Origin: Parapedobacter lycopersici | Lineage (GTDB): Bacteria > Bacteroidota > Bacteroidia > Sphingobacteriales > Sphingobacteriaceae | Direction: 5' to 3' | Assembly (NCBI RefSeq): GCF_024643285.1 | Contig: NZ_JAMSLW010000001.1 | Location: forward strand, 617,239 to 681,238 | Length of the DNA stretch: 64,000 nt | Shown: positions 17,238-48,131 of the stretch, in pieces | Layout of the letters: the number at the start of each line of letters is the position of its first letter | How positions within the stretch are numbered: position 1 is the first letter of the stretch | The notes under the pieces: generated by a model | The model's input: the letters and a program-made list of their open reading frames with translations, nothing else | What the model was told of the DNA's origin: nothing | Databases searched by the model: none | Position numbers and translations under genes: made by a program

Positions 17238-17702
17238 ATGAGTCTACCCAAAATCAGAATTTTGTTTGTTGATGACGAGGAGCATAACCTAATCTCTTTC
17301 AAGGCCTCGTTCAGAACCAAATACGCCATTGAAACAGCCTTAAGCGGACAAGATGCTATCGAGATGCTAAAAGAAAAGCAATTTGACATCATCATTACGG
17401 ACCAGCGAATGCCAAAAATGACCGGGGTTGAGTTTTTGGAGCAAATTATCCCGATATACCCGGAACCGATTCGGATTCTGCTAACCGGCTATACGGATAT
17501 GGCAGCGGTAATCGACGCGATCAACAAAGGCAAGATCTTCCATTACCTGAACAAGCCCTGGAACGAAACTGAATTAGACGATACCATCCAAAAAGCTTAT
17601 CTCGCCTATCTGGAAAAAAAGAGAATGCAGGAAGAGAATGAACAGTTGTCTGTTACGAATGAACAGCTTGAATTCTTATTGCGGCAAAAGCTATTATCGT
17701 AA
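17238..17702 (+). CDS. Single-domain response regulator with C-terminal coiled coil
   Basis: A 154-residue receiver protein without a DNA-binding output domain. The acidic pocket is VDDEE (D12, D13), the phosphoacceptor is D55 in IITDQRMPK, and the conserved Lys is K106 in YLNKPW. After about residue 125 a charged heptad-like tail (KKRMQEENEQLSVTNEQLEF) suggests dimerisation or docking. The same sequence type recurs in the receiver of the hybrid protein at 57138-58226. An in-frame TTG at 17220 was rejected in favour of ATG 17238. The gene converges on the 7TMR-DISM kinase gene with only 25 bases between stops, so it may be the kinase's phosphoacceptor. Confidence 0.9.
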   Translation: MSLPKIRILFVDDEEHNLISFKASFRTKYAIETALSGQDAIEMLKEKQFDIIITDQRMPKMTGVEFLEQIIPIYPEPIRILLTGYTDMAAVIDAINKGKIFHYLNKPWNETELDDTIQKAYLAYLEKKRMQEENEQLSVTNEQLEFLLRQKLLS

Positions 17703-17727
17703 AATAAACGACGGTCTTCAGGCACAA

Positions 17728-19935
17728 TTACACTTCATCTTCTACGCTATTTGTGTCAGCATCTCTTAATACTGATGGCTGTGTAATTGGTAAGGTTATA
17801 ATAAATTCGCACCCTCCTACATTCTCATCACTGACAAAGTTAATATCACCGTTGTGTTTAATGATTGTCTGTGAAACTATGGCAAGCCCCAGCCCGGTAC
17901 CTTCCCCTACATCCTTCGTAGTAAAAAATGGATCGAAAATCTTCGTTTTCAGGTCTTCTTTGATTCCAACACCGTTGTCCGTTACCTTGATGAGCACATG
18001 CTGGTCATCGCAAGAGGTGCTCACCAGTATCCTACCACCCGGAGCCCCCTGAAATTTCTCATCCACGGCATGAATCGCGTTCGTAAGGAGATTCAGGAAA
18101 ACCTGGTTCAGCTTGCTCGGAAAACATTCGATATACGGTATGTCACCGAAATCACGTATTACTTCTATCTTTTCCTTATACAGACTGTTAATGATGACCA
18201 GCGTCGATTCCAGCCCTAAATTAACGTCCGCAAATTTCAGATCATCTTCATCCACCCTTGAAAATACCCGTAGACTCTTCACAATCTCCGCAGTGCGCAT
18301 GGCACCCTCCTCAATTCCCTTCAATAGCAGGTTGATCTCATCCCGAAGATAATCATAGTCAATCTCCTCTTTGTATTCGGCTATGGAAATCGCCTTCTGT
18401 TCGGGTGTTTGATCGCTTAACCCGACCCCTTCTATTGTTTCCATTGCTTCAATGATCTGATCTACATCCCTGCTCAACGGCTTCACACTTGCAGTTACAA
18501 AGTTAATGGGATTGTTAATCTCATGCGCGATACCGGCCGTCAGCATACCCAGCGAGGCCAGCTTTTCAGACTCTACCAATTGTGTCTGCGTCTGCTTAAG
18601 ATCAGTCATCGCCTCCTCCAGGCTCTGATTTGCCAATAATAAATCTGCTGTCCGCTTGTTTACTTCTGTTTCCAATAACACGTTTTGTTCGCGGATGATC
18701 TGCGCATTCTTTTGAAAGACACGCAATGCCTGGGCCTGTGATTTTTCCTTGGCACGCCGATAAAAATTGATCCGGTCGGCTAGGGCAAAGGACAACAGTG
18801 AAATCTCCACTATTGACCCTATTTCCAGTATATGCGAAGTGAAATTATTATAGGGAAGCACGTTAAAGTTACGGAGTACAAATAAGATGACACTCAGGAA
18901 AAACAACGAGAAAGCAATAAAAATAAACTTTGCCGGGCGGTGTCCACTTCTACGGATCTGATTGATCACATACAACACATATATGATACCGATGGATGCC
19001 ATCGTCTGAAGAAACATTGCACCGAAATGAATATTAACCAGGCCAATAACCAAACCAACAAGATACAGAATGATGACAATATCAATCCCACGGTCCAGTT
19101 TGGGCGCATTCCTTTTGGTCTTTAAGAACGTCCGGATAAACGCAATGGTGGAAAGTCCGGATAATACCGGTATAATCACGGAGCTATACCTTGCCATCCA
19201 TGGACTCCCTGGCCACAAATACATAAACGCATATCCCTGGAACATCGCCTGGGTTAAACCGACAAATAAGATATATATGATGTAGAAGGTATAACCTCCC
19301 CCTTTTGTTGATATACTTAGGAATAGGTTATATATCATCATAATCAGAATCGCACCGGCGTACAAACCGAAAAGCAAGCTTTTGGTTGAGTTCTTTTTGT
19401 TGATCAGGGCTTCGGTTCCTAAAAAGAGAGGCAACTGTATCTGGTCGTTAGACGAAACAAGCATATAAAACGTCTGGGCTGTGTTTGTCTTGACATCAAT
19501 TGGAAAAATATAGTCCGGTGCGTCTACATACCGCTCCCAGAATGGCCTATACTGTCCCAATGTGTCCGCCCGGATTGTTCCGTCAGCCATTTCGGTATAT
19601 ATGGAAACTCGATCGATTGCGGGCTCACTTAACATCAAATACAGTTTCTGTATATCGGTCTGATTGTTAATGGTAAATTTCAGCCAGATATTCGAACGGC
19701 TAAACCCAAAATTGATCATACCCTGTTTTTCATTGCGGCTAAAGGGCATGTGCTTTACAGCCGCGAAGTCCAGGGCCCTATTTGTGTCCTCATAAATGTA
19801 TATACTTTCGCTGAGGGTCACTAATTGTTCGCTATTCAAATATGAAATTACCTGCTGATCTTCCGCAGCGACAAGTTTCAATACGCTGAAACAAATAACC
19901 AACAATACAGCCCATATTCTAGTAGGGAAATACAT
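17728..19935 (-). CDS. 7TMR-DISM sensor histidine kinase
   Basis: About 735 residues. The order is signal peptide (about 1-25), an extracellular 7TMR-DISMED2-type beta domain (about 30-165, with PAIDRVSIYTEMADG and FYMLVSSNDQIQLPL), a seven-helix membrane region (about 185-390), a coiled coil (about 395-450), a HisKA-like helix with phospho-His in LTAGIAHEINNPINF (about residue 471), and an HATPase domain with N-box LNLLTNAIHAVDEK, DNGVGI and FDPFFTTKDVGEGTG. GTG 19941 is also possible, but ATG 19935 is preferred. It is the last gene of the ThiF-GNAT-kinase operon and follows the GNAT stop directly. DISMED2 domains are thought to bind small carbohydrate-like or other ligands. Confidence 0.92.
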   Translation of the reverse strand: MYFPTRIWAVLLVICFSVLKLVAAEDQQVISYLNSEQLVTLSESIYIYEDTNRALDFAAVKHMPFSRNEKQGMINFGFSRSNIWLKFTINNQTDIQKLYLMLSEPAIDRVSIYTEMADGTIRADTLGQYRPFWERYVDAPDYIFPIDVKTNTAQTFYMLVSSNDQIQLPLFLGTEALINKKNSTKSLLFGLYAGAILIMMIYNLFLSISTKGGGYTFYIIYILFVGLTQAMFQGYAFMYLWPGSPWMARYSSVIIPVLSGLSTIAFIRTFLKTKRNAPKLDRGIDIVIILYLVGLVIGLVNIHFGAMFLQTMASIGIIYVLYVINQIRRSGHRPAKFIFIAFSLFFLSVILFVLRNFNVLPYNNFTSHILEIGSIVEISLLSFALADRINFYRRAKEKSQAQALRVFQKNAQIIREQNVLLETEVNKRTADLLLANQSLEEAMTDLKQTQTQLVESEKLASLGMLTAGIAHEINNPINFVTASVKPLSRDVDQIIEAMETIEGVGLSDQTPEQKAISIAEYKEEIDYDYLRDEINLLLKGIEEGAMRTAEIVKSLRVFSRVDEDDLKFADVNLGLESTLVIINSLYKEKIEVIRDFGDIPYIECFPSKLNQVFLNLLTNAIHAVDEKFQGAPGGRILVSTSCDDQHVLIKVTDNGVGIKEDLKTKIFDPFFTTKDVGEGTGLGLAIVSQTIIKHNGDINFVSDENVGGCEFIITLPITQPSVLRDADTNSVEDEV

Positions 19936-19941
19936 AGTCAC

Positions 19942-20643
19942 TTATAAATTAAATTTAGGCACCTTCAAATCGTATCTTACCGGGAACTCTCCTTTCGGGC
20001 CTCTCTCCAAAGTTTCCTGTTGTGGGTTATTTCTTAATGATAGTATTTTTTCACGCTCTGTATCGGTCGCCCGGCTAAGGTCATGGATATCGTGCATCCG
20101 CATCACAGTAGCAATAAGGTCATCCTTAGGATAATAAAACAGTCCGTTGTTGCCCAGTGATTTTTCGACCTCACATCCCAAACGTAATCCCATTTTCACC
20201 GTAATCGGTGCACACAACACCAACAGGCTGGCTACCGGCAACTGGGTTGTGATGGCTACCCCCACCCTGGCCAGGATGTAGCTGCCAATTCCCATGCCAG
20301 CGATTTCTCTTGAATTCCAAAGCCCGCATATTTCACACGTCCCTCCCCGCAACTCATCCGAACGGATCAAATCGTATATCTGTTCGTCGTAACGGCCAAT
20401 GGCCGTTTCAATAGGCAGTGTTAAACTGCTACGCGCAAGCTGTACCCTGGCCCCACCGTAAACCATGCCTGTTTCCGGATTTTCGACAAGGATAACTACG
20501 GTATTCGGGTCGTCTACCCAATCTTGCCTATTTGATGTGATTTGACTGATCCCAAAAATCTCCAACAATTTTCGGTGCCCGACAATAAACTTTTCGCAAG
20601 CTTCAGGATCCTCGGGCGCTATAAAAGTTCGGATTAGAACCAT
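19942..20643 (-). CDS. GNAT-like acyltransferase, autoinducer-synthase-like topology
   Basis: A 233-residue protein that I place in the GNAT fold on limited grounds. It shows VVILVENPETGMVYGGARVQ (a beta-strand pair as in acetyltransferases and LuxI-type synthases), then CEICGLWNSREIAGMGIG, where the E-x-x-x-x-W-N/S-R pattern and following glycine loop resemble the E/R core and acyl-CoA pyrophosphate loop. The C-terminal third (RMHDIHDLSR onward) has no parallel that I recognise. There is no signal peptide. It sits between the E1-like gene (5-base gap) and the histidine kinase (no gap), so the three products probably act in one pathway. Substrate unknown; N-acyl-amino-acid or signal synthesis is only a hypothesis. 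Confidence 0.6.
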   Translation of the reverse strand: MVLIRTFIAPEDPEACEKFIVGHRKLLEIFGISQITSNRQDWVDDPNTVVILVENPETGMVYGGARVQLARSSLTLPIETAIGRYDEQIYDLIRSDELRGGTCEICGLWNSREIAGMGIGSYILARVGVAITTQLPVASLLVLCAPITVKMGLRLGCEVEKSLGNNGLFYYPKDDLIATVMRMHDIHDLSRATDTEREKILSLRNNPQQETLERGPKGEFPVRYDLKVPKFNL

Positions 20644-20648
20644 CTTCC

Positions 20649-21752
20649 TTAGTTAGCTTTTTCCTCTTGTATCAAATCTTCAAAATCGACAAAATATCGA
20701 CCGGAGATTGAAAATTTTCCTAACAGAGACCTGCGGGTGACATCTGTTACCATTGCTCCTCCAAGCATGACAGCCGACGCCAGCTGCGGCCAGCCGGTAA
20801 TCGTCCTGTTCATTTCCTGAAGTGATAACTTCATCGCCTCGGAAACATTTTCCATGCCAATAATTTCAACCAGGTATTGGATTTTTTGCTGTATGGTTAA
20901 ATCTTTTAGCGTTTTTTCCAGTTCAGCGAACGACTGTCCTTCAATAGCCGATAGCCGGCCATGAAATATAGGCCGGTCCCTTTCTAAATCGAACCGTTCA
21001 ATATCCAACATTCCTTTATCGTTTGTATCCATGATCACGGGAATGCCAAACTCGCGGGCTTTAAGCCGGCTCAGGATCTTTACATCAATACCATCACATT
21101 CCTCCACCAACATATCAAGTGCACCGTTTCCGGTAAGAAAATCATCAATATTCTGAAAATTTATTCCTTCCGAATAACAACTCACCTGTATATAGGGATC
21201 CATTTCGGCGATTTGGCGTGCCGTAATAATGGTTTTATTCTCGCCCAGGTGATGTACTCCGGCACGGATCCTGTTCATATTGCTCAGTTCCAATGTATCA
21301 AAATCGCCCAGGCGTAATTCCCCGCAAATACGCTCCATTGCCATTGTTACTGCAACACTTTGTCCTACAGAGAGTCCGATCACGCCAATTTTCTTTTTGC
21401 GCAACGCCTGAACTTCTTCAAATGAAATTTTATATACGTTCCTGTTTGTCCGGACTTCAATAAATTCTTCTTCATCCAGCAAATGAACAATCTTATTCAG
21501 CCAGGGATAATAGGCCCAAACTCCATAATCTTCCAGGCTGGTGTCCGGCTGAACATGGGCCATGATCAACAGGTGTCTTTTGTCGTCGGTTATTTTTTCT
21601 GTCGGATTCCTTACCTTTATAAGTTCGCCAAGCTGTGCATAAATAGTGTCGACGCTTTCGATATGGGGTTTTTCGAGTAACAGCTGATCCATTGCTTCCG
21701 CATCTTGTCCATTACGTCTTCTAAATAACAACGGCCGATATGTTGTGTTCAT
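20649..21752 (-). CDS. ThiF/MoeB/HesA-family E1-like adenylyltransferase
   Basis: A 367-residue protein with the E1-like Rossmann core: KKKIGVIGLSVGQSVAVTMA (about 112-131) for nucleotide binding, DFDTLELSNMNRIRAG (about 152-167; the Asp and the N-x-x-R are typical ATP/adenylate contacts), then VEECDGIDVK and PVIMDTNDKG. Such enzymes adenylate a C-terminal carboxylate (ThiS/MoaD/ubiquitin-like or a peptide). The CxxC zinc pairs of MoeB/ThiF are absent, and the roughly 100-residue N-terminal extension and C-terminal part (WPQLASAVMLGGAMVTDVTR) are unlike them. It reminds me of the Rv1355c/MoeY subgroup, from memory only. It starts the operon and is divergent from the PKS-NRPS gene. Confidence 0.78.
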   Translation of the reverse strand: MNTTYRPLLFRRRNGQDAEAMDQLLLEKPHIESVDTIYAQLGELIKVRNPTEKITDDKRHLLIMAHVQPDTSLEDYGVWAYYPWLNKIVHLLDEEEFIEVRTNRNVYKISFEEVQALRKKKIGVIGLSVGQSVAVTMAMERICGELRLGDFDTLELSNMNRIRAGVHHLGENKTIITARQIAEMDPYIQVSCYSEGINFQNIDDFLTGNGALDMLVEECDGIDVKILSRLKAREFGIPVIMDTNDKGMLDIERFDLERDRPIFHGRLSAIEGQSFAELEKTLKDLTIQQKIQYLVEIIGMENVSEAMKLSLQEMNRTITGWPQLASAVMLGGAMVTDVTRRSLLGKFSISGRYFVDFEDLIQEEKAN

Positions 21753-22306: not shown

Positions 22307-25300
22307 ATGAATCAGCAAGGTCATTATCTGCACCAGCTTTTCGCGGCTTCTGTCGCCGAACATCAATTAGGTACCGCGATAATTTACCGGGACACTTCGA
22401 TTACCTATGCTGAACTTGATATTCGGTCAACTCAGTTAGCCAACAAAATCATTGTCAACTATCCGGATGACCCTTTCATAGGTATTAGTACAACCCGGGG
22501 TATTTCAACAATCATCGCCGTTTTGGCCATTCTTAAGTCAGGAAAGGCCTATATCCCTTTGGATAAAGATTATCCGGAACAGCGATTGACGCAGATTATC
22601 ACGGATTCACGACTTACGTGTTGTATCGCAATCGATAATGAACGGTCATTTTTCAATCAGTTGGCTATAGCGGTGTTGTCGCCTGATGCAGAAGAAGAAA
22701 GTCATCAGCTGGCCGCATCAAATCAATTCGGCAATGCCTATGTATTATATACATCCGGTTCAACCGGGGCTCCGAAGGGTGTGTTGATGGGGCATGGGGC
22801 CCTGGTTAATTTACTGCAATGGCAAAGCCAGCATTCCACTGCCGGCAAGGAAAGTGTCACTCTTCAGTTTTCTCCGCTGACTTTCGATGTTTCTTTTCAG
22901 GAAATTTTCGCCACCCTTACCACTGGTGGCACCCTGGCGCTGATAGATGATGATACTCGGCTTAATTCAGTTGATCTTTTAACGTTTATTGACGACTACC
23001 GCGTCAATCGCATATTTCTGCCGTTTGTTGCTTTGCAGTTATTGGCAGATACTGCATACCATCATCGCATTTATCCGCAGTCCCTTCGGGAAATTATTAC
23101 AGCAGGTGAACAATTAAAAATCACGGCGCAGCTGGTCAAATTCTTTTCAGCATTGCCGTCGGCCACATTGTACAATCAATATGGGCCAACGGAATGCCAT
23201 GTGGTTTCTGCCCTGGAGCTGACCGGGAGTCCGCAGGACTGGCCCGAGCTGCCATCTATTGGAACCCCGATCGATCAGGTATATTTCGTTATACTGGACG
23301 ACGCACTTCAGCCGGTTCAACCTGGGACGATAGGTGAATTATATATTGGCGGTGCATGCCTTGCTGAAGGCTATTTACATCAGGAGGTACTCACCGCTGA
23401 GAAGTTTATCAACTGGGAACACCAGGGAAATGCAGATCGGATTTATAAGACGGGCGACCTAGTATGCGAACTACCAGACGGCAATTTTGAGTTTCTGGGT
23501 AGAAAAGACCACCAGGTAAAAGTCCGGGGATATCGCATTGAGTTGGGTGAGATCGAAGTCCAATTAAACCGCCTCCCCCAAATCCAGGATGCCGTTGTCC
23601 AGGCTTTCGGCCAGGATACGTCCGAAAAGAAACTGGTCGCATTCCTCATTCCTGCCTCAAAGGACCGGGGACTGGAAGAAATTAAGCAGCAGTTAAAAGC
23701 ACAGATGCCGGCGTATATGATGCCGAGTGCATTCATCTGGGTCGACGCTTTTCCCAAGACTGCCAGTGGCAAGGTAGACCGCAAGGCACTTACATTGCCG
23801 ATACTTAAACGGCCTGATGGCAACGTGCCCTATAAAAATCCGTCCAGTCCGCTGGAAAAACAACTGGCCGCACTATGGGCCGAGTTACTGTATCTCGACC
23901 GTGTTGGGATACATGATAATTTCTTTGATCTGGGTGGGAATTCCTTACTGGCGCAAAAGACGGTCAACCAGCTTCAGCACGATTCAGGACATAAACTTCC
24001 GATTACGAAGCTGTATCAGCACCCGACCATTGCTGCCATTGCCGCCTATTTTGAAGATAAAGATGGTACCGCCCAATCCGTTAAGCGCAAAAGCAGAACG
24101 GTCCGTCAAAATAAAATCACGCCAATTGCCGTTGTCGGCATGGAAGCGGTTTTGCCCGGAGCAGCTAACATCGAAGAATTCTTACAGCTATTGCGTGCAG
24201 GTGGAGAGGGGATCACATTTTTCAAACCCGACGAGCTGGACCCACAGGTAACGGACGCCCTAAAAAAGGATCCCGATTATGTTGCAGCCCGGGGCGTGGT
24301 CAATGATATCGAATTATTTGACTGTGCATTTTTCGGCATATCCCCCACCACCGCCGAGGTGATGGATCCCCAGCAACGTGTTTTTTTAGAATTGTCCTAT
24401 AACCTGCTTGAAAAAACGGGCAACTTATCAGCAAAGAAGGAGCAGGACATCGGTGTATTTGCCGGATGCGGAACCAATCACTATTTTTTAAACAACGTAC
24501 TCTCCCACCCGGACAAGATTGACTTACTGGGAAAACTACCTGTCAGTTATGTAAATGAAAAGGATTACATCAGTAGCCGTACTGCATACCACTTGGACCT
24601 GAAAGGTCCGGCCGTAAGTGTATTATCTGCATGTTCGACTTCTGCCCTTGCGGTTGCCCAGGCAGTTGAGAGTTTGCAATATGGCCATTGTGAACTGGCC
24701 ATTGCCGGAGGCGCTTCCATTCATGTTCCTACGAAAAGTGGCCATATTTACCAAGAAGGTGCGATGTTCAGTAAAGATGGGCATTGCCGGCCGTTCGATG
24801 CAGATGCTACGGGAACCGTTTTTAGTGATGGTGCAGGTGCTATATTATTAAAGCCACTGGACAATGCGCTTGCTGACGGGGATACGATTTATGCTGTTAT
24901 CAAAGGCATTGGGATCAACAATGACGGCAATCGGAAAAGCAGTTTCACTGCACCGAGTTCGGAAGGGCAACGCGCAGCCATCGAAATGGCCATTGCCAAT
25001 GCCAACCTAAAACCAGCAGCTATCTCTTATGTAGAAACACACGGTACGGCTACGCCGATTGGCGATCCAATCGAAATTGAAGGCCTTTCGCTTGCTTTCG
25101 GTGAAACTCCGGAAAAGCAACACTGTGCTATTGGCTCGGTCAAGAGCAATATTGGGCATTTAACGCACGCTGCAGGGATTGCTGGGATTATAAAAACCTG
25201 TCTCTCGCTCTACCATAAACAGCTGTTTCCCACGCTACATTACAGGCGTCCCAACCCGGCTATTAATTTTACCGATAGCCCGTTTTATGTGAACACCACA

Positions 25301-28300
25301 CTCCGCGACTGGGAGCAAGAGCAACGGATTGCAGGTGTTAGCTCCTTCGGTGTAGGGGGTACGAACTTGCATCTAATCCTTGGAGAAGCTCCTGCTACTC
25401 CGGCAAACACCGCTTCGGAACAGCCAGTTGAATTCCGGCGAACAGAACAACTGATTTGCTGGTCGGCAAAATCGGAGGCCAGCATACAGCGTTACGCTGA
25501 CCTGCTTACTTCCTTTCTACGGGAGCAACCGGGAATCGAATTAGCAGATATTGCTTATACATTGCTGAAGACCCGTCAGGATTACAATTACCGAGCAGTT
25601 TTAACCGCAGCCTCCGTTGACGCTTTACTGGAAAAGCTGACGCATCCGTCATTACTTCAGGAAGCTTCAAAGAAACTGGAGCAGTACCTGGATGCGGTAG
25701 TTTTTATGTTTCCCGGCCAGGGTGCCCAATTTGTGCATATGGGCTGGGAGTTATATCGGGAAGAGCCTCATTTCAAAGCGGCTATCGACCGGTGCATCGG
25801 TTTACTTGACCCCACATTTGGAAAAGAACTTTACGCTGTTATTTATCCTGAAGCGGCGGATGAAGAAGCGGCCGAAAAATTGAAAAACACCTATTTTACG
25901 CAGCCTGCTATTTTTATCGTTTCCTATGCGCTTGCCCAGACATGGACCGCCTGGGGCCTCCGCCCCCAAGCCTATATCGGTCATAGTATAGGCGAGTTTC
26001 TGGCAGCTCACCTAGCCGGCGTCTTTTCACTCGAAGATGCGTTAAAACTGGTTACGGCCCGGGCTGCAATGATCCAGAAATTGCCAGCCGGTAGCATGCT
26101 GTCAGTCCGCATGTCCGAATCTGAGCTAAGAACAATACTTCCCAAAGAACTTTCCATTGCCGCAGCAAATGCCCCGATGCTTACCGTTGTTTCGGGAGAA
26201 AAAAATGCCGTAACGGCATTCTCAGCACTATTAACCGAACAAGGAACCGCAAACCGTCTGCTGCATACCAGTCACGCTTTCCATTCATCCATGATGCTTC
26301 CAGCAGTGGCGGCATTTGAGAAAATAGTATCAGAAGTTGCGCTTCATGTTCCAAAAACACCCATTGTTTCTACGGTAACCGGCGAATGGTTAACTGATGA
26401 GGAGGCCACATCAGCCCACTACTGGAGCAATCACATGGTTGCCACTGTGAAATTCGCTGCCGCGGTTGATTTTGCACACCAACAGCTGAATCCGTTGTTT
26501 TTGGAGGTTGGCCCCGGAAACGTAGGCTGTACGCTTGTACAGCAGCAGCTTAAGGCATCACCGGCGATACCGTCGCTGCCTATGCCCATGGCATCAGGCA
26601 AGCAGACTACGATACACCAGGCTGCCGGCAAACTTTGGCAGCTGGGTATTTCCCTCGACTGGTCTGCCTATTTTAACAGGACAGACCGCAGCTTTTTAGT
26701 TCAGTTGCCTACCTATGCTTATAACAAAAAGCGATATTGGCTGACGCCAGCAGTACGGGATCATCAGGCAATGAGTACGGCACCTGCCGCCAATCCACAG
26801 CATAATGAGACACAATCAGTTATCATGAGAAAAGAAATAATTATACAGGAAATCCGGACATTATTGGAAGGGGCCTCGGGGATAGAAATGGGACAGGCTG
26901 GCAACCAGGACAGCTTTTTTGAACTGGGCTTCGATTCCCTACTGCTTACGCAGATTGCTAGTAACTTAAAAAGCAAATTCAACGTACCGATTACATTCAG
27001 GCAACTGAATGAGGACCTGTACAGTCTGGACACGCTGGCACAATACCTGGATGAACAGCTGCCTGCCGAGGCCTATCGCCAGGAAACGGCCACAGCGCCG
27101 GTATCATTACCTGCAACTGCATATGAATCATCCCATACGCTGGCAGCAGCCCCGGCATTTCGGACGGACGCAACCATAGCGCCGCCGCCGAATGGCTCCA
27201 ACATCGCGTTGAACCTTGTTGCGCAGCAACTCAATTTACTCGCGCAGCAAATACAGCTCATGCAGGGGCAGCAGGCCGTACCCGTTATCGCCAGTGCCAG
27301 TGCATCCCCCGCTACCGGCACAACCGCAGTGGCATCACCACCAGCCGTAAACGGCAATGCTACCTCCGATCTGACAGCGGATGAAGTAGCAGCCTTCAAA
27401 AAGCCGTTTGGAGCGACTGCCAAAATTGACAAACACGTCACTGAGTTAAGTGAAAAACAGCTTCAGTTCCTGCAGGACTTCGTTTCAAGGTACAACGAAA
27501 AAACGAAGGCCAGTAAAGATTATTGCCAGCAGCACCGCTCCTACATGGCAGACCCAAGGATTGTGTCCGGATTTAAGCCCTATACGAAGGAGATGATTTA
27601 TTCGCTTGTCGTGAACCGATCAGATGGAAGCAGTCTGTGGGACATCGATGGCAACCAATATGTCGACGCGCTCAATGGGTTTGGCTCCAACTTTTTGGGC
27701 TATCAGGCGCCTGTCCTGAAAGAGGCTTTACTCAGCCAAATTGAAAAAGGCTACGAAATAGGACCGCAACATGAACTGGCCGGAGAGGTATGCAATCTCA
27801 TCTGCTCCTTTACCGGATTTGACCGGGCCGGCCTGTGCAATACTGGCTCAGAAGCCGTACTGGGCGCCATCCGTATCGCCCGTACCGTTACCGGCAAGAA
27901 ACTGATTGTTGCATTCAACGGTTCCTATCATGGTATCAATGATGAAGTGCTTGTCCGGGGAACCAAAAAACTTAAGTCGTTTCCCGCTGCGGCCGGTATT
28001 ATGCCCGAAGCTGTTCACAATATTCTAGTATTGGACTACGGCACCGATGAAGCGCTAAGCATCATCCGGGAACGGGCTGCGGATATTGCCGCGGTGCTCG
28101 TTGAACCCGTACAAAGCAGACGACCCGAATTCCAGCCGATTGACTTTCTTAAAAAATTACGTCAGCTGACCAATGATAATGGCTTATTATTGATTTTTGA
28201 CGAAGTAATCACCGGTTTCCGCATGCATCCCGGTGGTGCACAGGCACTATTCGGGGTTAAGGCAGATTTAGCGACTTATGGAAAAGTGATTGGTGGTGGA

Positions 28301-28954
28301 TTATCCATTGGTGCTATTGCCGGAAAAAGCACCTATATGGATGCGCTGGATGGCGGTTTCTGGCAATATGGGGATGCGTCGGTTCCAGAGGTTGGGGTGA
28401 CCTACTTCGCTGGAACTTTTGTCCGGCATCCATTGGCACTGGCCACTGCCTGGGCCACGCTGAATTATTTAAAAACACAGGGACCCGCATTGCAGGAGAG
28501 CCTAAATGCGAAAACACAGCACATGGTAGAGACCATGAATACATACTGTATCCAGTTAGGTATACCGGTTTATATTGCCCAATTCGGATCATTATGGAAA
28601 ATTAAATTCAAAGAGGAATACCCCTACTATGAATTAATATTTGCCTGGATGCGTTTCAAAGGTGTACATATATGGGATGGGTTCCCCTGTTTCCTGACTA
28701 CCTCCCATAGCGACAACGATATTGCATTTATTCTTCGGGTCTTCAGGGAAAGCCTGGAGGAGTTGGTGGCTGCCGGCTTCATTCCGGTTACCGGCAATGT
28801 GCAGCACAACGAACTTACGCTGCCGTTCAGCAATCCACCTGTTTTGGGTGCAAAACTAGGGAAAGACAGTCTTGGGAACCCGGCATGGTTTGTCGAGGAT
28901 TCAGCAAATCCGGGAAATTACCTGATGGTCAATTCAAAAGAGGCAGATTCATAG
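22307..28954 (+). CDS. Hybrid NRPS-PKS: A-PCP-KS-AT-ACP-aminotransferase
   Basis: A 2215-residue assembly-line protein without an initial condensation domain, so a loading module. Adenylation domain about 10-500 (LYTSGSTGAPKG near 146; GRKDHQVKVRGYRIELGEIE near 398; GKVDRKAL near 486); selectivity residues read D-V-Q-F-I-A-Q-V-V plus the Lys, close to proline codes. PCP Ser546 (FFDLGGNS). Ketosynthase about 606-1030 with Cys776, His912, His951. Acyltransferase about 1130-1440 with GHSIGE Ser1227 and HAFH 1323-1326, which indicates malonyl-CoA. ACP Ser1544. After an Ala/Pro/Gln linker (about 1590-1700), a class III aminotransferase (about 1730-2145) with DEVITGFR (1965 on) and PLP Lys1993. No KR, DH, ER, MT or TE. 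The tail (GNPAWFVEDSANPGNYL) resembles the linker that normally leads into a C domain. Confidence 0.95.
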   Translation: MNQQGHYLHQLFAASVAEHQLGTAIIYRDTSITYAELDIRSTQLANKIIVNYPDDPFIGISTTRGISTIIAVLAILKSGKAYIPLDKDYPEQRLTQIITDSRLTCCIAIDNERSFFNQLAIAVLSPDAEEESHQLAASNQFGNAYVLYTSGSTGAPKGVLMGHGALVNLLQWQSQHSTAGKESVTLQFSPLTFDVSFQEIFATLTTGGTLALIDDDTRLNSVDLLTFIDDYRVNRIFLPFVALQLLADTAYHHRIYPQSLREIITAGEQLKITAQLVKFFSALPSATLYNQYGPTECHVVSALELTGSPQDWPELPSIGTPIDQVYFVILDDALQPVQPGTIGELYIGGACLAEGYLHQEVLTAEKFINWEHQGNADRIYKTGDLVCELPDGNFEFLGRKDHQVKVRGYRIELGEIEVQLNRLPQIQDAVVQAFGQDTSEKKLVAFLIPASKDRGLEEIKQQLKAQMPAYMMPSAFIWVDAFPKTASGKVDRKALTLPILKRPDGNVPYKNPSSPLEKQLAALWAELLYLDRVGIHDNFFDLGGNSLLAQKTVNQLQHDSGHKLPITKLYQHPTIAAIAAYFEDKDGTAQSVKRKSRTVRQNKITPIAVVGMEAVLPGAANIEEFLQLLRAGGEGITFFKPDELDPQVTDALKKDPDYVAARGVVNDIELFDCAFFGISPTTAEVMDPQQRVFLELSYNLLEKTGNLSAKKEQDIGVFAGCGTNHYFLNNVLSHPDKIDLLGKLPVSYVNEKDYISSRTAYHLDLKGPAVSVLSACSTSALAVAQAVESLQYGHCELAIAGGASIHVPTKSGHIYQEGAMFSKDGHCRPFDADATGTVFSDGAGAILLKPLDNALADGDTIYAVIKGIGINNDGNRKSSFTAPSSEGQRAAIEMAIANANLKPAAISYVETHGTATPIGDPIEIEGLSLAFGETPEKQHCAIGSVKSNIGHLTHAAGIAGIIKTCLSLYHKQLFPTLHYRRPNPAINFTDSPFYVNTTLRDWEQEQRIAGVSSFGVGGTNLHLILGEAPATPANTASEQPVEFRRTEQLICWSAKSEASIQRYADLLTSFLREQPGIELADIAYTLLKTRQDYNYRAVLTAASVDALLEKLTHPSLLQEASKKLEQYLDAVVFMFPGQGAQFVHMGWELYREEPHFKAAIDRCIGLLDPTFGKELYAVIYPEAADEEAAEKLKNTYFTQPAIFIVSYALAQTWTAWGLRPQAYIGHSIGEFLAAHLAGVFSLEDALKLVTARAAMIQKLPAGSMLSVRMSESELRTILPKELSIAAANAPMLTVVSGEKNAVTAFSALLTEQGTANRLLHTSHAFHSSMMLPAVAAFEKIVSEVALHVPKTPIVSTVTGEWLTDEEATSAHYWSNHMVATVKFAAAVDFAHQQLNPLFLEVGPGNVGCTLVQQQLKASPAIPSLPMPMASGKQTTIHQAAGKLWQLGISLDWSAYFNRTDRSFLVQLPTYAYNKKRYWLTPAVRDHQAMSTAPAANPQHNETQSVIMRKEIIIQEIRTLLEGASGIEMGQAGNQDSFFELGFDSLLLTQIASNLKSKFNVPITFRQLNEDLYSLDTLAQYLDEQLPAEAYRQETATAPVSLPATAYESSHTLAAAPAFRTDATIAPPPNGSNIALNLVAQQLNLLAQQIQLMQGQQAVPVIASASASPATGTTAVASPPAVNGNATSDLTADEVAAFKKPFGATAKIDKHVTELSEKQLQFLQDFVSRYNEKTKASKDYCQQHRSYMADPRIVSGFKPYTKEMIYSLVVNRSDGSSLWDIDGNQYVDALNGFGSNFLGYQAPVLKEALLSQIEKGYEIGPQHELAGEVCNLICSFTGFDRAGLCNTGSEAVLGAIRIARTVTGKKLIVAFNGSYHGINDEVLVRGTKKLKSFPAAAGIMPEAVHNILVLDYGTDEALSIIRERAADIAAVLVEPVQSRRPEFQPIDFLKKLRQLTNDNGLLLIFDEVITGFRMHPGGAQALFGVKADLATYGKVIGGGLSIGAIAGKSTYMDALDGGFWQYGDASVPEVGVTYFAGTFVRHPLALATAWATLNYLKTQGPALQESLNAKTQHMVETMNTYCIQLGIPVYIAQFGSLWKIKFKEEYPYYELIFAWMRFKGVHIWDGFPCFLTTSHSDNDIAFILRVFRESLEELVAAGFIPVTGNVQHNELTLPFSNPPVLGAKLGKDSLGNPAWFVEDSANPGNYLMVNSKEADS

Positions 28955-29131
28955 AATCGTCTCATTACCCTAAATGTGCTATCTTTATTGTCCATTTTCG
29001 GACCAGGCAGCCGCAGGTAATGCCAGCCGCGGAATTACCGGGGAACCGGTCCGCTCCGGCTGACGCACCGGGGGTCTGGCTGAGCGGTAACGAAGCTGTT
29101 TATGTATACCGAAACTGAAATTTAACAGGAC
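28955..29131. other. Short gap between synthetase and PPTase genes
   Basis: 177 bases with no gene and no terminator-like hairpin with a T-tract. A TATCTTTA near 28980 is one base off the -7 consensus. Read-through from the synthetase gene into the PPTase gene is plausible. Confidence 0.4.
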
Positions 29132-29911
29132 ATGTCAATTGGAGGTGCCACAGACTGCGATATGATCACCAATCATTCGATCATCACCCCGCAGTGGGCA
29201 GTCATTCCATTAGAAGAAGCCGATCGTATACCGCATCCGGCGGTGTTGTGTACAACGATTCGTGTCGAGAGTGATGTTGTCCAGGACCTTTTTCAGGCGC
29301 TCCTTCCGGATGAACAGCAGCGCGCGTTGCGCTTCCGGCAAACCGAGGACCGTTTACGGTTTATTATCGGGAGGGCGCTATTACGTAAACTGCTGAACAG
29401 TTATACACACCAGAGACTGGAAAATATACCTTTCCAGCATGACGCTTATGGTAAACCCGCGCTGGCCCCACATTTTAATGCCCCTCAGTTTAACCTCGCA
29501 CATGCGGGTGACTATGTGGTCATTGGATTGGATGCACATCCTATAGGTATTGATATCGAGTATCTCAATCCTCATTTTGATTTTAACACCTTGCTACCCG
29601 CGAACTTTTCAGCCGAAGAAATCCGACATATACAGGACGCTTCATCGCCATACAGCAATTTTTATCTACTATGGACACGGAAAGAAGCTTTTTTAAAGCA
29701 TATTGGCTACGGTCTAACCCAATCGCCTATACATGTACCTGCGTTGCAGGGCACCCATCCGCTCCAGCATCGTTTCGGTACAGACGACAGGACGAAACAC
29801 CATTACCATTCCCATAGCTGCTATTTAACCGACTCAAATCACCTCCTAAGTATTTGCCTGAACAATTCGGATGGTCACTCCCCTGCTTTTTATGAAATAC
29901 AGTTACCGTAA
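29132..29911 (+). CDS. 4'-phosphopantetheinyl transferase (Sfp type)
   Basis: A 259-residue enzyme predicted to activate carrier proteins by moving phosphopantetheine from CoA to the PCP/ACP serine. Family blocks: RFIIGRALLRKLL (about 73-86), the Mg2+-binding PIGIDIEYLNP (about 136-146) and YLLWTRKEAFLKHIGYGL (about 177-194), the WxxKEAxxK signature. The length suits the Sfp/Gsp group that serves secondary-metabolite synthetases rather than AcpS. ATG 29162 is an alternative start. It lies directly behind the hybrid synthetase on the same strand, so it is most likely its dedicated activator. The last nine bases overlap the convergent GT2 gene. Confidence 0.92.
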   Translation: MSIGGATDCDMITNHSIITPQWAVIPLEEADRIPHPAVLCTTIRVESDVVQDLFQALLPDEQQRALRFRQTEDRLRFIIGRALLRKLLNSYTHQRLENIPFQHDAYGKPALAPHFNAPQFNLAHAGDYVVIGLDAHPIGIDIEYLNPHFDFNTLLPANFSAEEIRHIQDASSPYSNFYLLWTRKEAFLKHIGYGLTQSPIHVPALQGTHPLQHRFGTDDRTKHHYHSHSCYLTDSNHLLSICLNNSDGHSPAFYEIQLP

Positions 29912-31084
29912 TTCCGTTTTCCGTTTTGATTTTTCCCAGGCTGCGGCCTGGTTTCCCCTCAAGTAACGGAATATTCCGGCAATAACAGCGTAGTTCATCA
30001 GGCAAAAGTAATACGGTATAAAAAACAGCTTAATGCGCAGCTGGCGGCCTTCCAGCAGCCAACCGATAACCGCCATCCCGTAAAAAAGAAGCTGCATTGC
30101 AAACAAGGTAACATATACCGTTCCTGTACCTTCCGCAACCATAACTCCGTTCAGTATAAAAATCAACGGCAGTAAGAAAGGTACGATAGTCCACCGCAAT
30201 ACCCGATGGCTAATATATTGAAACGTCAGCAACGGATAGAAAAAAGGATTAGCGGCTTTAGGTAGCCGCAATATGGATTGTAGCCCCCCTGCTGCTATTC
30301 TAATCTTTCTTTTTAACTCTTCCGATGTGTTTTCCGATGCAGTTTCCATCGCATAGGCTGCCGGCTCGTAAGCGATGATGAATCCCTTTTCAGCGATACG
30401 CATCGCGATCATGTGATCATCGATAATGGTGTCCGTTTCCACAGGCGGGTAAAGCGCCGTACGGATACTGAACAATTCGCCGGCTGCACCCACATTAGAA
30501 TAAAAGGCATAGTCAAGCTTCTTTAATTTGGATTCATATTTCCAGTAGAACCCTTCCCCTGCTGCGCTCGCATCGGCAGTTCGATCGACTTTAATTCGCT
30601 TTTCACCGGCGACAGCACCGACCTTCGGATTTTGATAATGCTTGACCAACTGCTTGACTGCTTCCGGATTCAGGAAGGTATTTCCATCCGTAAAAATCGT
30701 GATCTCGCCCTGTACATGCGTCATCGCACGTTTAATGGCAGCCATTTTTCCCCGGCGTTCAGGCTGATGCAGCAATGTAATACTTGAATAACCGCCTACA
30801 ATGGCCGGTGTGTCGTCATCGGAACCATCCGTTATAAAAATAAGTTGTAACCGTTCTTCCGGGTAGTCCAGGTCAAGCGTGTTCTCTATTTTAGCACCAA
30901 TAATGTCAGCCTCGTTGTAAGCGGCCACGAGTAAGGTCACCGTAGGATATACAGATGACGCATCATTTATAGGGTAGGAAGATACCAAAGCACGTTTTAG
31001 CTTAACAAGCAGATATAAGACGACGCCATAACCGACAAAGGCGTAACACACAATACCGATGGCCAGCCAGAAGAGAATCGCCAT
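29903..31084 (-). CDS. Membrane GT2 glycosyltransferase
   Basis: A 393-residue enzyme with an N-terminal transmembrane helix (FWLAIGIVCYAFVGYGVVLYLL), a GT-A domain (about 45-285) and three or four C-terminal helices (about 290-380). Motifs: VAAYNEADII, FITDGSDDDT, FTDGNTFLNPEAV (DxD-like), EGFYWKYESKLKK and DDHMIAMRIAEKGF, with RKIRIAAGGLQSI in the place of the QxxRW region. This layout is like membrane GT2 enzymes that build or extend exopolysaccharide. It forms a one-base TAATG overlap with the upstream GT2 gene, so the two are coupled, and it overlaps the PPTase gene tail to tail by nine bases. Confidence 0.9.
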   Translation of the reverse strand: MAILFWLAIGIVCYAFVGYGVVLYLLVKLKRALVSSYPINDASSVYPTVTLLVAAYNEADIIGAKIENTLDLDYPEERLQLIFITDGSDDDTPAIVGGYSSITLLHQPERRGKMAAIKRAMTHVQGEITIFTDGNTFLNPEAVKQLVKHYQNPKVGAVAGEKRIKVDRTADASAAGEGFYWKYESKLKKLDYAFYSNVGAAGELFSIRTALYPPVETDTIIDDHMIAMRIAEKGFIIAYEPAAYAMETASENTSEELKRKIRIAAGGLQSILRLPKAANPFFYPLLTFQYISHRVLRWTIVPFLLPLIFILNGVMVAEGTGTVYVTLFAMQLLFYGMAVIGWLLEGRQLRIKLFFIPYYFCLMNYAVIAGIFRYLRGNQAAAWEKSKRKTELR

Positions 31085-31995
31085 TATCGAATTAATTTAA
31101 ATCCCAAATCGTAACTATCCGTTGCGTGTGTCATATTCCACCAAACTCCCTTATAATGCCACTTGATCAAATCGAATCGTCTTTTTGCTATATATACTAA
31201 GGCCTGCTTTGTTGAAGCAATAAGTAAAAAGAAGAGCGAAAAACACCCTATTGCCAGCCAACCGGCATTTTTACGAATAAATAGCATTCTATTCCGTGCC
31301 ATAAAATAAGTCTTTATCGGGGTCTCCTTGCCCACGCTTACTGACTCTTTGTGGTATACATGGGCAGCACCGCAAAACCAGCATTTTAAGCCGGCGCGTC
31401 TGAATTTTTCACCCCAGTCCAACTCCTCATAATAAAGAAAATACCGCTCATCCATCAGGCCCACACAGTCCAGGTCTCTTCTTCTGCACATCATTGCCGC
31501 TCCGTGACAATATGCCGTTTCTTCACAGACACGATCATATTGTCCCTGATTTATCTCTTTACTTCCCCCAGCACTGTTTCTCCCGGTAAAATAATTTATC
31601 TTACCGTAGCCTGCATACTGAATCAGGTCCTTATCCTCATGATACAAAAGCAGCGGCGATACCAGGCCGGCTTCAGGATGATCATCCAATTCCTTTTTTA
31701 ACCGCACGATCAGGTCCTCGGTGATCTCGGTGTCATTGTTTAAAAACAATAAATAATCACCCTTCGCATGGGTAATTCCTAGGTTATTCCCTCCAGCGAA
31801 GCCAAGATTACGCTCGGATCGGACATAGACGACATCAGGCATAACTTCCCTGAAATCAACACCATAATCCACTTCACTCCCGTTATCGACAATGACAACT
31901 TCTATTGCTTCATCCGGTCGGTTTTCCTGTATTGACCTTAACAGGTCGATAGTCACGTCCCGTTGTTTAAAATTAACAGTGATGATGGAAATCAA
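31084..31995 (-). CDS. GT2 glycosyltransferase, rhamnosyltransferase-like
   Basis: A 303-residue enzyme of the WbbL-like GT2 group. Motifs: MISIITVNFKQRDVTIDLL at the N-terminus, VVIVDNGS, RNLGFAGGNNLGITHAKGD, the DxD-like FLNNDTEI (about 87-94), and YFLYYEELDWGEKFRRAGLKCWF near 190, which is the conserved acceptor-side block. The C-terminus has one hydrophobic segment (AIGCFSLFFLLIASTKQAL). Donor sugar unknown, commonly dTDP-rhamnose for this shape. It is the first gene of a two-gene unit with the membrane GT2 gene. Confidence 0.92.
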   Translation of the reverse strand: MISIITVNFKQRDVTIDLLRSIQENRPDEAIEVVIVDNGSEVDYGVDFREVMPDVVYVRSERNLGFAGGNNLGITHAKGDYLLFLNNDTEITEDLIVRLKKELDDHPEAGLVSPLLLYHEDKDLIQYAGYGKINYFTGRNSAGGSKEINQGQYDRVCEETAYCHGAAMMCRRRDLDCVGLMDERYFLYYEELDWGEKFRRAGLKCWFCGAAHVYHKESVSVGKETPIKTYFMARNRMLFIRKNAGWLAIGCFSLFFLLIASTKQALVYIAKRRFDLIKWHYKGVWWNMTHATDSYDLGFKLIR

Positions 31996-32094
31996 AGTTT
32001 TTGAGCTGATTGTTGTTGTAACTTATGATACTGTATTCTTCCTCCTGCACCCGAAAAATCGTAACGGCGTTGACTGCAAGTTTTCTCCAAATGA

Positions 32095-33810
32095 TCAGCT
32101 GGCTGCCTCCACAAAAATGGGAGTTTCTGTTACCTGAACGTTTATTTTCCCTGCCTGTGTTGAAACTGGCTTTTCGGTCATTTGATTACCTTTAGGATTC
32201 AAATACCGAATTACCGCCTTTTCCGCACCTTTAAGATCCAGTTCATATCCCGCCGTTCTTCCCCGTTCATCCGGCACGTATAATACATATATACTTTTCC
32301 CATCGAGCTCGTACCGATCTACCATGGGGTCATGGTTTAATGTTTCCTGATACCGATAATTTCCCATGAGTCGCCCGAACTGATATAAATAGAAAGCTGC
32401 CGGGCGCCGCTGGTTATAATCCACCAAGCCGGATTTACTGAAAGGCGAATTGGAATTCACACCCGGCCCATCTGTATCAAACAGCTGGAAAAAGAAAACC
32501 CGCTGCACCCCGTGTCTGGCCAGCAGCAACGACGTGCGCAGCAACCAGTCTGCCTGTGTCATAATAGCAGGTTTATCGCCTATTGGAATTGCGCGTTGTA
32601 TACTCTTGGGCCCCAGGTCATAACCACTTTCCGTCATCCACACGGGCATATTTCCAATACTTGCAGCATACTCCGTCCAAGTATCGGCTATTTTCGCCAT
32701 TGGCGTAGTTTCCGGTGCCCTGCCCCGTTGCGTGTTTTTCGTTTCCTCCGTATACCAGGTCATGTTGTCATTGGAGTACATGTGGAAATTAAGTATATCG
32801 AAACATAGGTCGACGCTGCCATCAGCCTTTAAGCCTCGATTTTCCCTGCACCATTCCACCATGTCTTTGACAAACTGAATGTCAGCCCGCGCCAATCCCC
32901 CCATGACTACTTTTATATTGGGGTCTGCGTTCTTTATTCCCACATTCTTACCGAGACGGCCCTGGTGCCCATCGTAAAATGCAGATAAATTCGCAGCATA
33001 GGCACGACCGTTCTGTTCTGCCTGCGGTCCTTTCCACCATTTATCCGGTTCGTTATTGCACTCCACATATTTTACCAGATTTAAGCCGATCTTAACACGA
33101 TTAACCGGATCATTATTCCAGCGGGGTTTATTATTAACGGAAACAAGTGAAGAGTCAACGTTCTTATTGCTACCGTATCGGGCTGCAAACTGAAAAGCAA
33201 AACGACCCATCGCAATGTATGACTTAGGATCCTCGCGATTAGCTCCATATGGTGCAGGAGCATTCTCATTATCCCGCTGATTTTGTGGATAGGTTTGATA
33301 TAACCATTCAGGAGCATTCTTAACGCAGACTAACATGTCGATGCCCTGAGATTTCGCCCACTCATAAACCAAATCATAATTCCAGCTGCCCCGTGCAGCT
33401 GGATTAAACGTATAGCTACCTTCAACGAGCTCCATATTCTCCCAATCGAGGAAATGCCTGACCGATTTAAACGATTTGATTAATGGGATATGTGGCTCGT
33501 AAATTTTTTCAATTTCATTTAGGTCATTTGGATTCTGTAAAAAATCCCATTCAAACGCATTTATTCCGATTAAATCATTTACCTTTACTGGGATGTACGT
33601 ACGCGTGCTGACCGCTGTTTCGAGCAGATTTTCACCTGAATCTACATGGTGTTCAACCGTGTCCGCGATTGCGGAGCCAACAATATCAGATTCAATATCG
33701 GTGGTGTCTGTGGTTTGGTTTTGCGATTGATCACTTGCACACGCATATACAAGCAATGATAAAGCGAGATACAAGCCATATCTCATTGGGTTCAGTTTTT
33801 TTCTCTTCAT
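32095..33810 (-). CDS. Lipoprotein glycoside hydrolase (clan GH-A, GH39-like), paralogue 1
   Basis: A 571-residue surface or periplasmic lipoprotein from ATG 33810: KLNPMRYGLYLALSLLVYAC gives a signal peptide ending in a lipobox Cys, whereas the longer frame upstream starts in non-coding sequence. The mature part is a TIM-barrel glycosidase with acid/base E254 in YVECNNEPDKWW and nucleophile E394 in VWMTESGYD, the spacing of clan GH-A retaining enzymes; xylosidase, glucanase or exopolysaccharide-specific activity are possible. IGINAFEW near the start and PNIKVVMGGLA are shared with the divergent neighbour at 34004, so the two are paralogues. It is probably involved in trimming or degrading the locally produced polysaccharide. 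Confidence 0.82.
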   Translation of the reverse strand: MKRKKLNPMRYGLYLALSLLVYACASDQSQNQTTDTTDIESDIVGSAIADTVEHHVDSGENLLETAVSTRTYIPVKVNDLIGINAFEWDFLQNPNDLNEIEKIYEPHIPLIKSFKSVRHFLDWENMELVEGSYTFNPAARGSWNYDLVYEWAKSQGIDMLVCVKNAPEWLYQTYPQNQRDNENAPAPYGANREDPKSYIAMGRFAFQFAARYGSNKNVDSSLVSVNNKPRWNNDPVNRVKIGLNLVKYVECNNEPDKWWKGPQAEQNGRAYAANLSAFYDGHQGRLGKNVGIKNADPNIKVVMGGLARADIQFVKDMVEWCRENRGLKADGSVDLCFDILNFHMYSNDNMTWYTEETKNTQRGRAPETTPMAKIADTWTEYAASIGNMPVWMTESGYDLGPKSIQRAIPIGDKPAIMTQADWLLRTSLLLARHGVQRVFFFQLFDTDGPGVNSNSPFSKSGLVDYNQRRPAAFYLYQFGRLMGNYRYQETLNHDPMVDRYELDGKSIYVLYVPDERGRTAGYELDLKGAEKAVIRYLNPKGNQMTEKPVSTQAGKINVQVTETPIFVEAAS

Positions 33811-33879
33811 TTTCAGGATGACGTAAAATGCTGGCTTCAAAATAAATAAAGGGCAACACCATACAATATATGTATTGCG

Positions 33880-33887
33880 CAAAAGTA
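33880..33887 (-). promoter_or_regulatory. -7 element of the paralogue 1 glycosidase gene
   Basis: On the minus strand 33887-33880 reads TACTTTTG, matching TAnnTTTG, 70 bases before ATG 33810. No clear -33 TTG was seen. Confidence 0.45.
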
Positions 33888-34003
33888 CATAATAATCTAT
33901 ATTTATTTGGCGTTTTGTTAGAATATAATATATAAACGAATGACAGAAGGTGGTCCCTTTTAAAACCATAAATAAAAATCTATACTTAACCTAATTTCAT
34001 CTC

Positions 34004-35602: not shown

Positions 35603-35794
35603 CCGTTACCAATTTACGGGGAAATGTGATGTTTACGAGTCTGAAGACTACGCCTTCGCGATAAGGATCTTCTTTATTTTGGAGTGTTGGAGATACTATT
35701 TTGAGCAACTAAAAATCAGTTCTTCTATTTTCACCGTTGAATATCCGGGTTATCCAAAAAAAATGAGGGTTATCACTGTCGGCAGCAAAGCTCC

Positions 35795-35827
35795 TTGTCA
35801 TAAATTTCAAAGAAATGTTTACATTTG
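35795..35827 (+). promoter_or_regulatory. Candidate promoter upstream of the NRPS gene
   Basis: TTG (35795-35797) and TACATTTG (35820-35827), spacer 22 bases, slightly long for the Bacteroidota consensus. Transcripts would start near 35835 and carry a leader of about 180 bases. Confidence 0.5.
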
Positions 35828-35851
35828 CCGTGGAGCAATTATACGCCCATT

Positions 35852-35917
35852 ATGGAAACCTTAACCTCTCAAATTGAACCCATTGATGAAACCAGACTTG
35901 ATTGCGTTGAAAAATAG
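35852..35917 (+). CDS. Possible 21-residue leader peptide
   Basis: ATG 35852 opens a 21-codon frame reading METLTSQIEPIDETRLDC and ending VEK before TAG. It lies about 18 bases after the predicted transcription start, so it would be the first frame on the NRPS transcript. It is acidic and hydrophilic with one Cys. It may be a regulatory leader or a chance frame; nothing in its sequence decides. Confidence 0.2.
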   Translation: METLTSQIEPIDETRLDCVEK

Positions 35918-36017
35918 ATCAGCAGCTCGTGAAAATAAATTGGATAAATAAAAAAGCAATGTTTAAAGCGTTAGAAACAGGGATTATTTGCAAATAAAAA
36001 AACAGACTTCATAAACC

Positions 36018-40043: not shown

Positions 40044-40179
40044 GAGCTGGACCCGCTTAACGTTTACTTATCAATCCACAGCAATTTAAAACCGGTTCTC
40101 TGTCATATCGCTTATGATGAATTGACATTGGCTATCTGCGTATCTGCATGCTTGCAATATACAACCTGATTTGTAATAT

Positions 40180-43055: not shown

Positions 43056-43075
43056 GGTATATTGTTGTAAGTTAT

Positions 43076-48110: not shown

Positions 48111-48131
48111 GATATTTTGCTTCTCCTTAAT

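Follow-up and report, generated by a model that had tools for sequence, protein, structure and literature searches.

A conserved Bacteroidota gene module linking a FeeM/LuxI-like acyltransferase and exchangeable tailoring enzymes to a 7TMR-DISM kinase: a candidate family of cell-cell signalling systems

What does a bacterium make, and what does it perceive, when an adenylating enzyme, an acyltransferase and a membrane sensor kinase are encoded almost without spacing in a single operon? This question is raised by a stretch of 64,000 nucleotides from Parapedobacter lycopersici (Bacteroidota, Sphingobacteriaceae; assembly GCF_024643285.1, contig NZ_JAMSLW010000001.1, positions 617,239 to 681,238), hereafter the window, in which genes for a ThiF-type protein (20649..21752), a GNAT-like protein (19942..20643) and a 7TMR-DISM sensor histidine kinase (17728..19941) follow one another on the minus strand, and a single-domain receiver (RR) with a C-terminal helix is encoded convergently on the plus strand (17238..17702). 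According to the open reading frame (ORF) calls, 5 bases separate the ThiF stop from the GNAT start and 0 bases the GNAT stop from the kinase start, which is a GTG codon with an in-frame ATG 6 bases downstream, and the receiver gene ends 25 bases from the kinase stop. An earlier note on this DNA had described such spacing and convergence, and had proposed that the two enzymes make a small signal sensed by the kinase. The ORF coordinates confirm the arrangement, and its domain assignments for the ThiF protein, the kinase and the receiver agree with Pfam matches: PF00899 (E 6e-16) in the first; DISMED2 (PF07696, E 2e-27), 7TMR-DISM_7TM (PF07695, E 1e-45), HisKA (PF00512) and HATPase_c (PF02518) in the second; and Response_reg (PF00072, E 1e-21) in the third.

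With the integration of gene-neighbourhood, phylogenetic and structure-prediction analyses, we consider it likely that these genes form a dedicated system of signal synthase, capping enzyme and sensor kinase. With a little less confidence, we favor the broader proposal of a new Bacteroidota cell-cell signalling family, in which a FeeM/LuxI-like synthase, interchangeable capping enzymes and exchanged, matching 7TMR-DISM sensor halves would constitute chemically distinct pherotypes on a conserved relay. By analogy with characterized pathways, the signal would most likely be an N-acyl amino acid with a capped carboxylate (azlactone or methyl ester), read by the 7TM kinase.

Conservation of the module and exchange of its tailoring enzyme

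Among the neighbors of 39 strong ThiF homologues in related genomes, a GNAT gene was adjacent in 39/39 loci and the kinase was present in 38/39 (the contig ends in the remaining one), together with a receiver-HisKA-HATPase hybrid (RRHK) in 36/39 and RR in 35/39, a co-occurrence far above chance; the conservation check suggested by the earlier note thus returned an almost invariable association. The gene set is repeated in 80 named loci, nearly all from other Bacteroidota (Sphingobacteriaceae, Chitinophagaceae, Cytophagales, Cryomorphaceae), with a small divergent receiver (rec2), mostly located after RRHK, in 54/80. Further, a search with the GNAT profile only found this protein in 151/301 genomes of the family (21/25 genera) and in 13/395 genomes sampled across the phylum. 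In 80 further loci selected by the GNAT profile alone, taken in order from the match lists and excluding genomes obtained earlier via ThiF, the kinase lies beside the GNAT in 78/80, a figure from which nine kinase-selected loci (L172-L177, L179-L181) were excluded. The ThiF, GNAT, kinase, RRHK and receiver genes therefore constitute a conserved Bacteroidota module.

The order RRHK-rec2-ThiF-GNAT-kinase is contiguous in loci L051, L078, L079 and L231, and Olivibacter displays it uninterrupted, together with RR. In the window, RRHK (57138..58226, minus strand) and rec2 (56676..57071, minus strand; PF00072 E 5e-9) are displaced by 36 kb. The former was recognized by its domains and by its homology to the RRHK adjoining ThiF in L051 (57% identity, 455 bits; runner-up in the genome, 107 bits), and the latter by its orthologues, which follow RRHK elsewhere. 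The receiver at 17238..17702 does converge on the kinase gene, as described earlier, but it is not a lone receiver and would belong to a larger relay with RRHK and rec2. The window kinase displays the 7TMR-DISM layout of 7TM region, extracellular domain and kinase core, and no second PF07695 protein was found in the whole genome. Among other copies of the module, tandem pairs of RR-type single receivers occur in L066, L141, L150, L243-L247, L265, L266 and L268, and the kinase gene is broken in L107 and L217, possibly by frameshifts, decay or sequencing errors.

An obligatory link between kinase and ThiF was rejected after a survey of the kinase sensor region in 100 relatives, as nine genomes harbor the kinase without ThiF; this led to the discovery of other tailoring enzymes. 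In these nine genomes the module is the same, but the place of ThiF is taken in eight loci by a SAM-dependent methyltransferase (about 254 aa) and in one by a FAD-linked oxidase. In the 80 GNAT-selected loci, whose enzyme proportions do not stand for population frequencies, the tailoring position is occupied by a ThiF fused to a flavin-dependent oxidase (ThiF-FDO) in 45, by ThiF in 19, by the methyltransferase in 14 and by an ICMT-type carboxyl methyltransferase in 2 (213 aa; PF04140 E 1e-19; NF040696 98 bits, below cut-off). Across all loci collected, exactly one of the five enzymes is present in 209 and two in none. The adenylating enzyme of the window operon is thus one choice among at least five for this position.

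Co-segregation of the kinase sensor half with the tailoring enzyme

Trees of the kinase parts and the other proteins were built from the 138 loci having all genes, and the changes of enzyme label (cyclase, methyltransferase, ICMT, FAD oxidase; minimum possible, 3) were counted on each. The label changes 3 times on the 7TM tree, 3 on that of the whole sensor and 4 on that of the extracellular part, versus 16 for the kinase core, 13 for GNAT, 16 for RR and 17 for RRHK, with about 20 in shuffled data. The finer split between lone and fused ThiF follows the same pattern, with 9 (7TM), 11 (sensor) and 15 (extracellular part) changes vs 33 (kinase core), 26 (GNAT), 32 (RR) and 33 (RRHK). For the 19 methyltransferase loci, the nearest neighbor also carries a methyltransferase in 19/19 cases by sensor, 11 by kinase core, 14 by GNAT and 8-9 by the receivers. 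When 41 rows were tested, those with a methyltransferase grouped as a single clade by their 7TM region (support 99.9); the same grouping is rejected with the kinase core (p-AU 3e-176) and with GNAT (p-AU 1e-60). The kinase sensor half thus co-segregates with the tailoring enzyme, and the kinase core, GNAT and receivers do not.

The mosaic can be appreciated in individual pairs, such as L208 (ThiF) and L214 (methyltransferase), which are 91% identical in GNAT, 80% in the kinase core, 83% in RR, 80% in RRHK and 26% in the sensor. The break falls near kinase residues 360-400, at the edge of conserved sequence, and recurs in similar pairs; trees and pairwise identities delimit the window sensor half to about residues 1-395 (18757..19941, minus strand).

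Predicted chemistry and its closest known counterparts

The window GNAT had no Pfam or NCBIfam match and no match in a PDB sequence search. Its AlphaFold2 model (pLDDT 93.2, pTM 0.90), built on an alignment of 33 relatives, has FeeM (2g0b) as its best Foldseek match (E 1e-8), followed by the N-acyl homoserine lactone (AHL) synthases BjaI, RpaI, TofI, EsaI and LasI among general GNATs, and aligns with FeeM over 172 residues at 2.7 A (VIA Z 16.4). The resemblance to autoinducer synthases noticed from the sequence is therefore borne out at the level of the fold, and the structural comparison with LuxI and FeeM proposed at that time places the middle protein among GNATs of the FeeM/LuxI type. At the sequence level, one of the 33 relatives matches the FeeM family (PF21926, E 6.5e-4), seven match PF00583 and none matches the LuxI autoinducer synthase family; the window protein matches neither of the first two. 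This model-based evidence leads us to predict an N-acyl amino acid synthase.

The ThiF assignment rests on sequence models. The Rv1355c family model NF005901 matches residues 2-363 of the window protein with its positions 9-342 of 722, scoring 448 bits. The curated 476 bits are not reached because this protein has no counterpart to the second half of the model; within the Rv1355c/TrzS family it represents the N-terminal half and lacks the flavin-oxidase portion. Invariant across 28 relatives are GLSVG, DxDxxExxNxNR, K173 and C219-D220; Asp217 of TrzS is required for cyclization, and the invariant Asp220 (ECD motif) is likely its counterpart, as judged from sequence. The protein has three cysteines (143, 192 and 219) and none of the zinc-binding CxxC pairs of the MoeB/ThiF/E1 type; the earlier note was right on their absence, which is normal for this cyclase family. 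Actinobacterial Rv1355c proteins align in full length with the Bacteroidota ThiF-FDO (E about 1e-160). A lone Rv1355c-type ThiF (51% identity) was also found in Brevibacillus invocatus (L139 7944-9083), beside gyrase/topoisomerase genes and without GNAT or kinase, likely gained by horizontal transfer; in L043 the ThiF-FDO gene is split, possibly by a frameshift, decay or sequencing error.

No FDO was found in the window protein or elsewhere in the genome, which holds merely two unrelated short nitroreductases, nor was a homologue found in any of the 20 lone-ThiF genomes tested (the window genome and 19 others), while the five fused ThiF-FDO genomes used as controls all matched at E below 1e-138. 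Lone and fused forms switch 4 times on the tree built from 109 ThiF domains, against a mean of 36.7 with shuffled labels; the window protein is placed in a large lone-ThiF clade with Olivibacter, Pedobacter cryoconitis, Niabella and Chitinophaga. Because label changes are few, the lone clade is large and no FDO is encoded elsewhere, the FDO-less ThiF is taken as an old, stable variant and not as a truncated gene. Likewise, since cyclase and acyltransferase are present and the oxidase is lacking from both protein and genome, the window set is best regarded as a cyclase-only variant, not as the full oxazolone pathway.

The closest characterized pathways are those of TrzA and TrzS, which N-acylate Trp, cyclize and desaturate it to yield N-acyl tryptazolones (PMC12856293), and the like pathways TyzACB (Tyr) and OxzAB, working with Tyr or Phe (PMC12856293, PMC10404671). 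They share with the module an N-acyltransferase adjoining a ThiF cyclase of the same family, as well as the ThiF-FDO fusion, present in half of the Bacteroidota copies, and signalling genes are found nearby, namely cyclic di-GMP (c-di-GMP) genes beside trzAS of Mycobacterium tuberculosis (PMC12856293) and a GGDEF gene on a Rhodococcus plasmid. They differ in that the window genome lacks the oxidase, the module includes a dedicated 7TMR-DISM kinase and relay in its operon, and its cyclase is replaceable by methyltransferases, whereas the known pathways have no described kinase partner.

From these pathways we infer the following reactions. The GNAT would couple the acyl group of an acyl-CoA or acyl-ACP to an L-amino acid, and the ThiF protein would adenylate the carboxylate and close an N-acyl oxazolone (azlactone), with a saturated ring expected because the genome lacks an oxidase. 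In sister modules, the carboxylate would be capped as a methyl ester by the SAM or ICMT methyltransferase, or the azlactone would also be desaturated by ThiF-FDO. For four of the five tailoring enzymes, the free carboxylate that an N-acyl amino acid offers could thus be the target; the methyltransferases would methylate it, ICMT being called a carboxyl methyltransferase and the soluble family having no assigned substrate. By analogy, the capped carboxylate would be the chemical equivalent of the AHL lactone, giving a neutral, lipophilic molecule able to exit the cell or enter membranes. The 7TMR-DISM sensor half may then read the product, with phosphate passing to the receiver, RRHK and rec2, and swapping the tailoring enzyme together with the sensor half would alter the signal type on a retained set of GNAT, kinase core and relay.

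As in the LuxI-type AHL synthases and FeeM, an acyl chain would be placed by a GNAT fold on an amino acid with a masked carboxylate, although here significant sequence similarity is lacking, the partner is a membrane kinase instead of LuxR, and the mask would be an azlactone or methyl ester, not a lactone. N-acyl amino acid methyl esters (NAMEs), the predicted product type of the methyltransferase variants, have been called AHL analogues (PMC11580390), a report in which their biosynthesis genes were not known and no link to a kinase was made. With regard to inheritance, the module resembles ComQXPA of Bacillus and agr of Staphylococcus, where the signal-modifying gene and the kinase sensor half are highly variable and co-inherited and the kinase core and regulator are conserved. 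The agr locus has a hypervariable region with the same exchange pattern of signal-modifying gene and sensor half. High polymorphism, with pherotypes, is documented for comQXP (PMC4408185). The module differs from both in having no peptide, in the capped N-acyl amino acid proposed in its place, in its kinase family and in the swap of non-homologous chemistry rather than of specificity alone.

Weighing the alternatives, and the surroundings of the module

Two features expected of two-component quorum sensing are found in the module, putative signal-synthesis genes coupled to a kinase and, with the caveat of linkage, a sensor half that co-varies with the enzyme. In the main competing explanation, the kinase would respond to an external cue (stress or envelope damage, for example) rather than to the product, and would govern the synthesis of an N-acyl oxazolone or ester employed as antibiotic, surfactant or membrane lipid. 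Sub-inhibitory antibiotics do induce oxazolone production in proteobacteria (cited in PMC12856293), N-acyl tyrosines act as antimicrobials (PMC7293339, PMC12856293), and there are 7TMR-DISM kinases that detect molecules from the environment, as SagS does with glucose-6-phosphate (PMC8544897). An environmental sensor, however, would not be expected to be replaced with each change of the tailoring chemistry, yet the sensor half tracks the enzyme almost perfectly and the kinase core does not, and we regard this explanation as rather unlikely. More doubtful is that enzyme and sensor half travel together as mere neighbors, by homologous recombination in the conserved GNAT and kinase core, without functional matching. 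The position of the breaks at the edge of conserved sequence (residues 360-400) would suit it, as would the enzyme-GNAT-kinase arrangement, in which sensor and GNAT track the ThiF type about equally; it leaves unexplained the divergence of sensors (24-28% identity beside 80% kinase cores) and the single methyltransferase-type sensor clade across genera, and the sensor fits chemistry (3 label changes) better than gene order (8). The general ThiF/E1 fold with its adenylation residues could also suggest protein modification by a ubiquitin-like E1 or a sulfur-transfer enzyme, a reading we hold to be very improbable given the Rv1355c cyclase family membership, the absence of CxxC zinc pairs, the flavin-oxidase fusion in half of the relatives and the methyltransferases that take the ThiF position after the same GNAT.

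A dedicated signalling system remains our preferred explanation, and several observations weigh against it. The tailoring gene and the 5' end of the kinase gene are often adjacent, so linkage could contribute to their co-segregation and is a partial confound; in the 69 loci that have the GNAT gene in between, the tree of the 7TM region, with 4 changes, does hardly better than that of GNAT, with 5 (kinase, 8), and correlations of pairwise distances fail to tell 7TM and GNAT apart. No DNA-binding domain was found in any module receiver. Copies without the kinase exist (L095, L154, L139, L254 and Streptomyces L270), and because some ThiF or GNAT copies have no adjacent kinase, the chemistry seems to predate or outlive the signalling link. 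Furthermore, TyzA and TyzB without the oxidase gave no detectable cyclized product in vivo (PMC12856293), which makes the lone-ThiF product uncertain; a saturated azlactone has been seen as a TrzS intermediate under oxygen limitation (PMC12856293). Even so, the proposal that an adenylation and acyl-transfer pair makes the signal of the kinase has gained support, as the pair matches characterized N-acylation followed by ThiF cyclization (PMC12856293, PMC10404671) and the sensor half tracks the tailoring enzyme; we infer binding of the product by the kinase, subsequent phosphotransfer and signalling between cells.

The enzyme families are known and partly characterized. A search of open-access papers turned up no account of their pairing with a dedicated kinase, of a tailoring position open to exchange or of the mosaic sensor, and these are what would be new. 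What natural N-acyl oxazolones do for the cell is described as unsettled (PMC12856293), and well over 100 sequenced bacteria from soil and water link the likely synthesis of such compounds to one dedicated kinase, a link that opens a signalling role to direct experiment. If the proposal is true, a widespread bacterial group would possess a system akin to quorum sensing whose synthase, capping enzymes and receptor can be named, 7TMR-DISM kinases would gain a natural ligand class, and signal evolution would have a striking example in capping chemistries exchanged whole, along with the sensor halves that match them; confirmation of the proposal would add a new family of bacterial chemical communication, based on a fatty-acyl amino-acid signal.

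Between ThiF and rec2, the window contains an insertion of nonribosomal peptide synthetase (NRPS), polyketide synthase (PKS) and exopolysaccharide (EPS) genes (22307..56101), recognized by comparison with the contiguous loci of relatives. At 22307-40043 it encodes an NRPS-PKS-aminotransferase hybrid (2215 aa), a phosphopantetheinyl transferase and a C-A-T-TE NRPS. These genes were considered as conserved module partners and rejected, with scattered matches only near other copies; because they are mostly absent there, the insertion is probably incidental. A further receiver, not assigned to the module, lies between rec2 and the EPS genes (56079..56465, minus strand; PF00072 E 3e-21). The region 48132-58226 holds EPS genes (sugar transferase, OEP, Wzz, Wzy, glycosyltransferases) co-directional with and directly downstream of RRHK, rec2 and this receiver, and a local output of the relay in these genes is possible. 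Upstream of RRHK, two AraC-type helix-turn-helix (HTH) proteins are encoded (58603-60796), with no homologues near other module copies.

Outside the phylum, the GNAT profile matched neither the neighbor of the actinobacterial ThiF in L271 nor the GNAT of L270, a plasmid of Streptomyces sp. NBC_01471 (7923-9721) in which a lone Rv1355c-type ThiF (43% identity) overlaps the GNAT gene by 4 bases; this locus has no 7TM kinase, and a sensor/response-regulator pair lies about 5 kb downstream. On a Rhodococcus qingshengii plasmid (L269 2825-7073), a GGDEF gene and an unannotated GNAT-like gene, a putative TrzA homologue whose match to the GNAT profile is merely suggestive, stand beside the Rv1355c-family gene.

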